Assembly: GCA_902624315.1 (NCBI GenBank)
Contig: CACNXC010000001.1
Location: forward strand, 124,001-188,000
Reading direction: 5' to 3'
Length of the DNA stretch: 64,000 bases
DNA from: an uncultured Pelagibacteraceae bacterium
GTDB taxonomy: Bacteria; Pseudomonadota; Alphaproteobacteria; Pelagibacterales; Pelagibacteraceae
Positions 36,432 through 38,268 of this stretch are shown one piece after another. The notes below the pieces were generated by a model. That model was not told the DNA's origin. It worked only from the letters and a program-made list of their open reading frames with translations, and made no database searches. Each line of letters opens with the position of its first letter. The first letter of the stretch is position 1. Made by a program: the position numbers and the translations under genes.

Positions 36432-36460
36432 TTGACATACTAAATAACTTCTAGTACAAA
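36432..36460 (+). promoter_or_regulatory. Near-consensus sigma-70 promoter of metX
   Basis: A perfect -35 box TTGACA (36432-36437), a 17-base spacer and TACAAA (36455-36460) as -10 (four of six). A start 6-8 bases on would fall at about 36467, exactly where the SAM-II aptamer begins. Clear TTGACA boxes are rare in this AT-rich window, so this is a well-supported prediction. Confidence 0.75.
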
Positions 36461-36464
36461 ATTT

Positions 36465-36516
36465 ATGCGCTGATTTACCTGAATTGCGAGCGCTTTAAAA
36501 AAACCGCTAAAAAAGT
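36465..36516 (+). ncRNA. SAM-II riboswitch upstream of metX
   Basis: An S-adenosylmethionine-binding pseudoknot. P1 is GCGC (36467-36470) with GCGC (36490-36493). Between them the sequence reads GCGCTGATTTA then TTGC, very close to the published SAM-II core (GCGCUGAUUUAACC...UUGCAAGCGC). Then GCTAAAAA (36506-36513), the SAM-II 3' signature, follows. The pseudoknot can form: UUGC (36484-36487) with GC and AA of 36506-36510, and CU (36479-36480) with AG (36514-36515). The metX context is the classical SAM-II position in alphaproteobacteria. SAM-V shares this core but its later elements differ; SAM-II is favoured. It would turn metX off when SAM is plentiful. Confidence 0.92.
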
Positions 36517-36550
36517 TTTTTTTCTCACAATTCAACTTTCAGCATTTATT

Positions 36551-37675
36551 ATGAGTATAAAACAAAATATAAAAACGTTGATTGTTGAAAAACCACTAAA
36601 ATTAGACTGTGGTCAGACTATTAATAATTTTCCTTTAGCGTATGAAACTTATGGTTCACTCAATAATGAAAAAGATAACGCAATTTTAGTATTTCATGCT
36701 TTAACAGGTGACCAATTTGTTACAGGTATAAATCCAGTGACCAAAAAGGATGGTTGGTGGTCTTACGCAGTAGGCTCTGGCAAGTCGATAGACACAGATA
36801 AATATTTTGTAATCTGTGCAAATGTAATAGGTGGGTGTATGGGGTCTTTTGGGCCTGGCCATGAAAATCCCAAGACAAAAAAAATTTATGGAACAGATTT
36901 CCCAGTTATCACAATTAATGACATGGTGAATGCACAAATTAATTTGTTGGATTTTTTTGGAATAAAAAAACTTTTTTCAGTAGTAGGTGGTTCAATGGGT
37001 GGAATGCAAGTCCTACAATTTATTAGTAATTATCCTTATAAAGCTAAAACAGCAATACCAATTGCTTGTACTTCAAGCCATTCTGCGCAAAATATTGCTT
37101 TTAATGAACTTGGCAGACAAGCCATTGCGGCTGATCATAATTGGTCTGATGGAGATTATAATTTAAAAAATATTGTACCCGATAAAGGATTAGCTGTAGC
37201 TAGAATGGCTGCACATATTACTTATCTCTCAAAAAAAGGACTTCAAGAAAAATTTGGTAGAAAACTTCAAGAAAGAGATGATTTAAAATTTGGGTTTGAT
37301 GCTGACTTTCAAATTGAAAGTTATCTTAGATACCAAGGTTCTGTATTTGTAGATAGGTTCGACGCAAATAGCTATTTATATATTACTAGAGCAATGGATT
37401 ATTTTGATTTAGTAAAACAATTTAATGGTAATTTATCTGATGCTTTTAAAAATACTAAAGCAAAATTTTTTATAATATCCTTTACCTCAGATTGGCTTTA
37501 TCCAACACAAGAAAATAAAGACATTGTAATTGCCTTAAACGCAGTTGGTGCAAATGTGGGTTTCGTCGAAATTGAGTCTGATAAGGGGCACGATTCTTTT
37601 TTGCTTAATGTTCCCGATTTCTTAAAAGCTCTAAAAAATTTTTTAGATAAATCTTATGCAGAAAAACATTCATGA
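36551..37675 (+). CDS. metX: Homoserine O-acetyltransferase (MetX)
   Basis: Activates homoserine with acetyl-CoA (or succinyl-CoA) for methionine synthesis by sulfhydrylation. 374 residues, alpha/beta hydrolase fold. The nucleophile elbow is VVGGSMGGMQVL, the acid lies in SFTSDWLYPT and the histidine in SDKGHDSFL. Early blocks PLAYETYGSLN and FHALTGDQFV are MetX signatures. It is controlled by the SAM-II riboswitch. Stop and start overlap by four bases with metW. Acyl donor (acetyl versus succinyl) cannot be read safely. Confidence 0.95.
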   Translation: MSIKQNIKTLIVEKPLKLDCGQTINNFPLAYETYGSLNNEKDNAILVFHALTGDQFVTGINPVTKKDGWWSYAVGSGKSIDTDKYFVICANVIGGCMGSFGPGHENPKTKKIYGTDFPVITINDMVNAQINLLDFFGIKKLFSVVGGSMGGMQVLQFISNYPYKAKTAIPIACTSSHSAQNIAFNELGRQAIAADHNWSDGDYNLKNIVPDKGLAVARMAAHITYLSKKGLQEKFGRKLQERDDLKFGFDADFQIESYLRYQGSVFVDRFDANSYLYITRAMDYFDLVKQFNGNLSDAFKNTKAKFFIISFTSDWLYPTQENKDIVIALNAVGANVGFVEIESDKGHDSFLLNVPDFLKALKNFLDKSYAEKHS

Positions 37676-38268
37676 AGCCAGAATATAAAATTATTTCAGA
37701 TTTAATTGAGAAAGATGCAAAGGTTCTTGATGTAGGATGTGATGATGGAACTTTGATGGAATTTTTAAAGACAAACAAAAATGCTAATATCAGAGGAATT
37801 GAAATTTCAAAAGAAAAAGTGCAAACTTGTATTGCTAAAGGGCTGACTGTTATTGAGGGGAATGCAGAATTTGATTTAAAGCAATTTCCAAATGACTCTT
37901 TTGAGTATGTTGTTCTTGGACAAACTTTACAAGCTTTTATAAATCCTGAAACTGTAATTAAAGAGCTTTTACGAGTTGGTAAAAAAGCTATAGTAACCAT
38001 TCCAAATTTTGGGCATTGGAAAGTAAGATTAAATTTATTATTTAAAGGAACAATGCCAATTACAAACTCTTTACCTCATGATTGGTATAACACACCAAAC
38101 ATTCATATGTGCACCATAAAAGATTTTGTCAGATTTTCTAAGATTATTAACTTTAAAATTTTTAAATCTTTAGCGTTAATTAATGAAAATGTTTCTGATA
38201 TTAATAACTCAAATCTTATTTTTAAAAATTTATTTGGAGAACTTGGTATATTTTTAATAGAAAAATAA
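37672..38268 (+). CDS. metW: Methionine biosynthesis protein MetW
   Basis: 198 residues with a SAM-binding class I methyltransferase fold: VLDVGCDDGTLMEFL (motif I), RGIEISKEKVQTC, and VVLGQTLQAF. The metX-metW pair is conserved in proteobacteria, and MetW is reported to assist MetX activity. The overlap of four bases with metX suggests translational coupling. There is no MTHFR or sulfhydrylase in the window to complete the pathway. Confidence 0.93.
   Translation: MKPEYKIISDLIEKDAKVLDVGCDDGTLMEFLKTNKNANIRGIEISKEKVQTCIAKGLTVIEGNAEFDLKQFPNDSFEYVVLGQTLQAFINPETVIKELLRVGKKAIVTIPNFGHWKVRLNLLFKGTMPITNSLPHDWYNTPNIHMCTIKDFVRFSKIINFKIFKSLALINENVSDINNSNLIFKNLFGELGIFLIEK

Follow-up and report, generated by a model that had tools for sequence, protein, structure and literature searches.

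A probable genus-specific expression platform of the SAM-II riboswitch upstream of metX in uncultured Pelagibacteraceae: a U-tract adjoining the aptamer and a conserved counter-helix

In a stretch of 64,000 nucleotides (nt) of DNA from an uncultured Pelagibacteraceae bacterium (contig CACNXC010000001.1, positions 124,001 to 188,000, hereafter the window) the metX gene is preceded by a riboswitch of the SAM-II class, whose ligand is S-adenosylmethionine (SAM), and this known aptamer appears to be joined here to an expression platform specific to the genus. The platform consists of a U-tract directly adjoining the aptamer and of a segment behind it that can pair with strands of the aptamer itself in a counter-helix, and both the pairing and its conservation are confirmed as far as sequence comparison goes. 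The reading we favor, and to which we would give about an even chance of being right, is that the SAM-bound pseudoknot together with the U-tract attenuates transcription, and that the counter-helix latches the read-through RNA out of the aptamer fold. All positions are those of the window and all its features lie on the plus strand; the named genomes with the nearest MetX are those of uncultured Pelagibacteraceae, a group commonly called SAR11.

The aptamer begins with the P1 hairpin (36467-36493), in which GCGCT (36467-36471) pairs with AGCGC (36489-36493) in agreement with Rfam matches and conservation, and whose loop (36472-36488) contains GATTTA and the 5' strand of the pseudoknot helix P2. 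The two P2 strands are CTGAATTGC (36479-36487) and GCTAAAAAAG (36506-36515), the last aptamer pair being C36479-G36515; this pairing, C36479-G36515 included, was mapped on the SAM-II fold of PDB 2QWY rather than computed, and we presume it to apply here. For comparison 208 loci of the window's genus were assembled (L005-L114, L169-L183, L185, L186, L190 and L203-L282), representing 109 of 124 MetX-positive genomes, the best 80 loci of one MetX list and some loci from other searches, with some genomes represented more than once. L033, whose downstream arm is CTCTCAATTC, was dropped because a contig end cuts its P1, leaving 207 loci, and L184, L187, L188, L189 and L191, together with weaker RF00521 matches, were left out as being located away from metX; collapsing duplicates gave 165 distinct leaders, 130 unique spacers and 103 aligned leaders. 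GCGCT of P1 is identical in all 207 loci. The letters of the class (P1, GAUUU, AUUGC, GCUAAA and P2) are all present between 36467 and 36515 and invariant in the 103 aligned leaders, where within P2 positions 36480-36487 and 36506-36511 never vary and C36479 and G36515 are each kept in 102. The Rfam models match end to end, RF00521 with 29.2 bits (36457-36531, E 5.7e-5) and RF01726 with 29.1 bits (36461-36520), and stay below their gathering cut-offs of 36 and 44 bits, which are database thresholds and not biological features; a search of the window at gathering cut-offs accordingly gave no match, and the aptamer was recovered by an E-value search. None of 13 genomes of the window's genus exceeds the RF00521 cut-off, and among eight metX leaders of other genera two pass it (L163 with 45.6 and L165 with 40.4 bits) and six do not (L126, L128, L137, L143, L147 and L156), whereas in 14 control genomes all matches to RF00521 are weaker, 4 of these genomes matching at E values up to 0.5. 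SAM binding by the aptamer of the window is predicted from its class. Earlier work lists a SAM-II element ahead of metX in Candidatus Pelagibacter ubique (Meyer et al. 2009, PMC2704228) and places such elements before bhmT and metX with an effect on transcription (PMC5069961).

The 5' arm of the counter-helix, TGAATTG-C-GAG (36480-36490), overlaps the 5' strand of P2 and the first two bases of the 3' strand of P1, and its 3' arm, CTC-A-CAATTCA (36524-36534), places A36527 opposite C36487 as a conserved mismatch. The inner helix so formed comprises 10 base pairs (bp) around this one C.A mismatch, including GAG (36488-36490) with CTC (36524-36526), and is extended in the minimum free energy (MFE) structure by pairing of an A-run with a U-run. 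Beyond an internal loop, five additional pairs are available between GCTGA (36469-36473), which lies inside P1 and L1 and is invariant in 103 of 103 aligned leaders, and TCAGC (36539-36543), which is partly conserved. The initial annotation of this DNA had located GCTGA and TCAGC, TGAATTG (36480-36486) and CAATTCA (36528-36534), and the T8 tract (36516-36523) correctly throughout, and the end of its helix seven nt before the start codon agrees with the ends of TCAGC and the ATG at 36551. The pairing that it described as a 12-bp helix with one internal loop is real, but the inner part is longer than it had seen, GAG:CTC having been missed, and the outer arm is kept only in part; likewise, aptamer strands are indeed engaged, but these are strands of P1 and P2 rather than most of the SAM-binding loop, and TTTA of the SAM-contact loop stays unpaired. 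In keeping with the proposal, an unconstrained fold of 36460-36565 contains the pairing at -19.2 kcal/mol (z -2.29; 5 of 200 shuffles equally stable). A mononucleotide-shuffled 35-nt tail complements the TGAATTG-C-GAG 11-mer at 10 or more of 11 positions in 3 of 20,000 trials, and some 11-mer of the aptamer at the same level in 21 of 2,000, so that the single sequence is moderately significant and the strong evidence is conservation.

This conservation is extensive. The aptamer-side arm TGAATTGCGAG is identical in 207 of 207 leader loci, and the downstream arm CTC-N-CAATTC is found in 199 of them, N being A in 167, T in 29 and C in 3, counts which the relatedness among leaders inflates. The other eight downstream arms, CTCGCA[T/A]AATTC (three loci), CTCCAATTC (four) and CTAGCAATTC (one), are all able to re-form the helix with one defect, either a bulge or a moved mismatch, and the perfect complement CTCGCAATTC is absent from the 207 loci and from the eight extra loci described below. 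Of the 1030 pair cells that the inner helix has in the 103 aligned leaders, 1026 are standard (99.6%); sliding the partner by 1-3 columns lowers this share to 24.6-56.9%. Counting Fitch changes on a FastTree tree of the MetX coding sequence of these leaders, 36524-36526 show 0, 1 and 0 changes, the mismatch column 36527 shows 11, 36528-36533 show 2, 0, 0, 0, 0 and 0, and 36534 shows 6, with only A and G occurring at this last position and both being able to pair with U36480. Seventeen of the 20 changes in the 11 arm columns thus fall in the unpaired mismatch column or are an A/G exchange facing U, and the remaining three, at 36525 and 36528, all come from the re-registered leaders L014, L039 and L040, whereas the neighboring columns have 12-19 (36535-36538) and 12-28 changes each (36544-36549).

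The exact pattern TGAATTGCGAG-N(25-42)-CTCNCAATTC was furthermore searched in 297 genomes of the order and found in 172, all belonging to one of the 11 genera and, in the rows inspected, with at most one copy each. Since 198 of the 297 genomes belong to the window's genus, 26 of these lack the exact pattern; 15 of them also lack a MetX match, G009 has CTCCAATTC and G033 has CTCGCATAATTC, and the nine others were fetched. One of these, G261, has a partial metX without leader, and the other eight have the aptamer and form the extra loci L283-L290, which were chosen for lacking the exact pattern and stand outside the 207 and the 165. Their downstream arms are CTCCAATTC in L286-L289 and CTCGCATAATTC in L284 and L285; L283 has ATCACAATTC, in which ATC replaces CTC and the last GAG:CTC pair is lost, and L290 combines the downstream arm CTCACAATTC with the aptamer arm CGAATTGCGAG, so that an end pair is broken and uncompensated. 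The helix is kept in all eight, one pair weaker in two.

One may alternatively suppose that CTC-N-CAATTC is kept for some other reason, such as a protein or DNA site, and that its match to the aptamer is coincidental. The frequency with which shuffled tails match some 11-mer of the aptamer leaves room for this notion, and in the assembly of the window's genome CTCNCAATTC occurs 11 times as against 4 for the reversed control, although two of the 11 are the arms of this very leader, the aptamer arm being read on the other strand. A coincidental match is however made very improbable by the facts that the column that varies is precisely the one without a partner and that the variant arms shift register and yet keep pairing.

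The evidence for the outer GCTGA:TCAGC helix is weaker, and this arm is conserved in part of the genus only, as an optional extension of the inner helix. Its five pairs, with G-U allowed, can form in 61 of the 130 unique spacers as compared with a mean of 6.0 in shuffles (standard deviation 2.3, maximum 13, 1000 rounds), and in the 103 aligned leaders 330 of 440 ungapped cells pair (75.0%; 75 gapped cells set aside), against 21.4-57.0% when slid. Against this stands the observation that the identical test gives 63 of 130 for GTTTT, a U-rich 5-mer of this leader, and among the 5-mers of the first 60 nt of the leader GCTGA ranks fifth by mean run, after U-rich 5-mers, which fit an A-rich spacer. 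Furthermore, the outer arm columns have 10-15 changes each, almost as many as their neighbors, and the arm is degraded or missing in many distant leaders.

The second element of the platform, the U8 tract (36516-36523), lies directly 3' of the pair C36479-G36515. That a T8 tract follows the last aptamer pair had been noticed in this one sequence, and it turns out to be a property of the genus, since a run of T5 to T9 directly abuts the aptamer in 165 of 165 distinct leaders, an arrangement in which the aptamer might serve as terminator, as in riboswitches of the hydroxymethylpyrimidine diphosphate (HMP-PP) type. No terminator-like hairpin, by comparison, was found in this region of the window or in any of the 165 leaders. 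MetX matches occur in 271 of the 297 genomes and in all 11 genera, and of 46 genomes chosen from the ten other genera 43 leaders were read (those of G187, G207 and G232 were not). In all three genomes read from genus g3 (L145, L150 and L151) the search expression recovered no aptamer ahead of metX, and their leaders were excluded manually, leaving 40 aptamer leaders in nine genera. A canonical terminator, that is a GC hairpin followed by a U-tract, is present in 32 of these 40, and an antiterminator, defined by a run of six or more uninterrupted pairs joining the P2 3' strand to the terminator hairpin, in 31 (L128 is an example); the eight without terminator belong to g2 (2), g4 (4) and g9 (2 of 5), some having other or imperfect hairpins. 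With 0 of 165 leaders as against 32 of 40 in the nine other genera, a canonical intrinsic terminator with antiterminator can be discarded for the metX leaders of the window's genus, and the leaders of other genera, when examined for covariation, proved to carry different platforms. This distribution, rather than a reconstruction, suggests that the attenuator hairpin was lost in the genus, the U-tract beside the aptamer being either retained or acquired.

Folding predictions for the 165 leaders are consistent with two mutually exclusive states that depend on how much of the leader has been synthesized. When the RNA ends at the U-run the mean probability of P1 is 0.94 (minimum 0.23), at full length it is 0.15, and the inner helix then has an approximate mean probability of 0.84, being above 0.9 in 124 and above 0.5 in 138 leaders; in the window the switch-over occurs between 3' ends at 36530 and 36535. 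A compact platform in which an alternative helix excludes the SAM-II aptamer, as the initial annotation had proposed, is supported and conserved across the genus. Leaving P2 and SAM out of account, the aptamer state lies on average 7.1 kcal/mol above the MFE structure (range 0.7 to 14.8), and one might imagine from this margin in favor of the latter that the downstream arm simply wins at equilibrium and locks the aptamer out, the leader being constitutive, the more so as the linker of the bhmT tandem is reported to block SAM binding by its SAM-II element in vitro (PMC11508383). Such a lock-out is nonetheless decidedly improbable, since TTTA (36474-36477) and GCTAAA (36506-36511) are invariant in the 103 leaders even though both lie outside the counter-helix, which is not what one would expect of a dead aptamer.

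The same predictions bear on a translational switch, in which one state would cover the metX start region and the other free it. The outer arm ends 7 nt before the ATG and hence within the ribosome footprint, and for a SAM-II element with an embedded ribosome-binding site an action on translation has been described (PMC10907184). The predicted accessibility of positions -12 to +6 is however the same in both states (mean of 165 leaders 0.61 in the free ensemble and 0.60 in the aptamer state), the 20 nt upstream of metX contain no Shine-Dalgarno (SD) core and none is found in the leader, SD cores being rare in the window altogether (6 of 55 open reading frames called, 2.5 expected), and the outer arm is missing in many leaders. 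A start freed by SAM would moreover have the wrong sign for a gene of methionine synthesis, and the suggestion that SAM binding exposes the leader is not supported. A translational switch is therefore improbable, and SD occlusion of the SAM-II translational class as well as masking of the start site were rejected.

This makes transcription the most likely level of control, and the order in which the parts of the leader are synthesized constrains their possible roles. The polymerase passes the U-tract before it makes the 3' arm, a point which the initial annotation had overlooked, and the arm can therefore have no say in termination at the tract and is ruled out as its classical antiterminator. 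A role of the arm in a separate terminator was likewise rejected, as it is not followed by a U-tract. What we infer instead is a sequence of events starting with the polymerase at the U-tract, when only the aptamer would have left the enzyme and the SAM-bound P1-P2 pseudoknot, ending at the first U, would act as the stem of an intrinsic terminator, releasing a leader RNA of some 55-60 nt. Without SAM the pseudoknot would be too weak and the polymerase would continue past the U-tract, whereupon the next 11 nt, CTC-N-CAATTCA, could pair with TGAATTG-C-GAG and disrupt both P1 and P2, a step for which pairing potential and conservation speak. The read-through mRNA would then be unable to regain its SAM-binding form, the counter-helix being a one-way latch for the ON state, and the mismatch, which is conserved as described, may serve to hold this latch just strong enough, a perfect helix in the window being predicted to be 5.4 kcal/mol more stable.

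Several observations weigh against attenuation followed by a latch. Two-sided covariation of the kind proposed as a check in the initial annotation is not seen, the aptamer-side arm being the same in all 207 loci and its sole change, in L290, being uncompensated, so that the evidence from conservation is one-sided and consists of compatible changes, re-registered variants and near-invariance. P2 is rich in A-U pairs, the U-run is as short as U5 in L284, L285 and two of the 165 leaders, and runs of at least 7 U or A are common, 240 being counted over both strands of the window. The inner helix has a probability of 0.5 or less in 27 of the 165 leaders, in which other folds win, and in L074 and L094 the partner of the arm is found in or close to the metX start; in the window, furthermore, P1 has a probability of only 0.28-0.58 at 3' ends 36510-36520, owing to competition from a two-hairpin fold, before recovering to 0.92 at 36523, values which come from Vienna and hence leave the pseudoknot unscored. 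The literature searched does not establish for SAM-II that a pseudoknot can act as the stem of a terminator, and in P. ubique limited for sulfur the strongest upregulation was that of the osmC, bhmT, metY and mmuM transcripts, the main text of that study naming metX once, as having a SAM-II element (PMC5069961).

The main rival accepts the two folds and replaces the terminator. The counter-helix would guard a pyrimidine-rich, G-free stretch, U8-CUC-ACAAUUCAACUUUC, which SAM, by stabilizing the aptamer, would set free as a loading site for Rho or a cleavage site for RNase E, so that expression would be lowered through Rho-dependent termination or decay of the mRNA and not at the U-tract. The sign is correct for a gene repressed by SAM, the 3' arm is free of the counter-helix only in the aptamer state and its region is without G, and riboswitches linked to Rho and RNase E are mentioned in a passage of PMC9373788. 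This explanation nevertheless seems unlikely to us, as it accounts neither for a U-tract that follows the final aptamer pair without a gap in all distinct leaders nor for the presence of a U-tract where the terminator hairpin is absent.

As for its surroundings, metX (36551-37675) encodes a homoserine O-acetyltransferase (NCBIfam NF001209, 513 bits, cut-off 331) and is followed by metW (37672-38268; TIGR02081, 222.2 bits, cut-off 189.5), which is probably the second gene of the controlled operon; the two overlap by four bases (37672-37675), which suggests coupled translation. A putative -35 element TTGACA of the metX promoter lies at 36432-36437 and recurs at a similar position in most correctly oriented relatives inspected; with a putative -10 element TACAAA (36455-36460, 17-nt spacer) it would place the transcription start around 36465-36467, where P1 begins. 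This TTGACA promoter went unreported in a scan for consensus promoters, which listed only one site, at chance level. L112 and L114 have ATTATAG and ATTATTG at the usual ATG of the leader, where the near-identical L113 has ATTATGG, and their MetX may start at a later ATG or, in L114, at TTG.

Other SAM-II elements were seen in the genus. In L189 (minus strand) a single SAM-II element with neither U-tract nor CTC-N-CAATTC precedes a gene that we take to be bhmT. At L002 (1501-1627, from G000:C3:23966 on, in the window's genome and outside the window) a SAM-V element of 86.9 bits stands ahead of a gene which is presumably metY, with a SAM-II-like element (16 bits, E 0.2) directly upstream of it and no obvious terminator between the two; a SAM-II/SAM-V tandem is a possible lead here, the score being within the range of control-genome matches. 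A SAM-II-like element of 15.5 bits is likewise found upstream of a SAM-V element of 84.4 bits at L196 (minus strand, 1501-1576). Behind the SAM-II-like element of this leader stands a hairpin resembling a terminator, in which GCTTTAG matches CTAAAGC of the P2 3' strand, so that the genus probably has SAM-II platforms other than the compact one.

That the pseudoknot, once it has bound its ligand, doubles as the terminator stem, and that a downstream anti-aptamer segment acts as an irreversible latch after the decision, weakened by a mismatch kept throughout the genus, is a tentative proposal, somewhat more likely to fail than to hold. If true, it would mean that within one order of bacteria the same aptamer and the same gene are served by two different platforms, and it opens to direct testing the notion of a post-decision latch in riboswitches whose strength is set by a conserved mismatch. 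In line with the initial annotation, such a platform was not found described for SAM-II in the literature searched, a mention in Poiata et al. 2009 being possible.

Among known systems, SAM-II elements have most often been tied to terminators in alpha- and betaproteobacteria, by a mechanism which was then not established (PMC2258182). The metX leaders of other genera, with the same aptamer class before an orthologous gene, belong to the type with intrinsic terminator (for SAM-II see Corbino et al. 2005, PMC1273637), in which, as in the window, SAM would be expected to lower transcription, and they mostly carry a GC-rich terminator hairpin overlapping the complement of the P2 3' strand (32 and 31 of 40), whereas the window's genus has neither terminator nor antiterminator and its competing helix takes the P1 3' and P2 5' strands. 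The compact translational SAM-II element of a Sargasso Sea metX (PDB 2QWY; PMC10907184) shares the H-type pseudoknot class and the gene name, but the leader of the window lacks an SD sequence in the P2 3' strand or before the ATG and has a U-tract and a counter-helix. In the bhmT tandem SAM-II/SAM-V of the related organism P. ubique, downstream sequence also interferes with the aptamer (PMC11508383), but the tandem-type leader L196 of the window's genus has CCACC-GCTTTAGACA-GGTGG-T9 and not the CTC-N-CAATTC motif. The HMP-PP (thiS) riboswitch, finally, would resemble the leader of the window in that aptamer and terminator form a single structure and the switch is very short, but its aptamer is unrelated, its stem is a classic terminator stem and not a pseudoknot, and the passages of PMC6478431 consulted describe no counter-helix.
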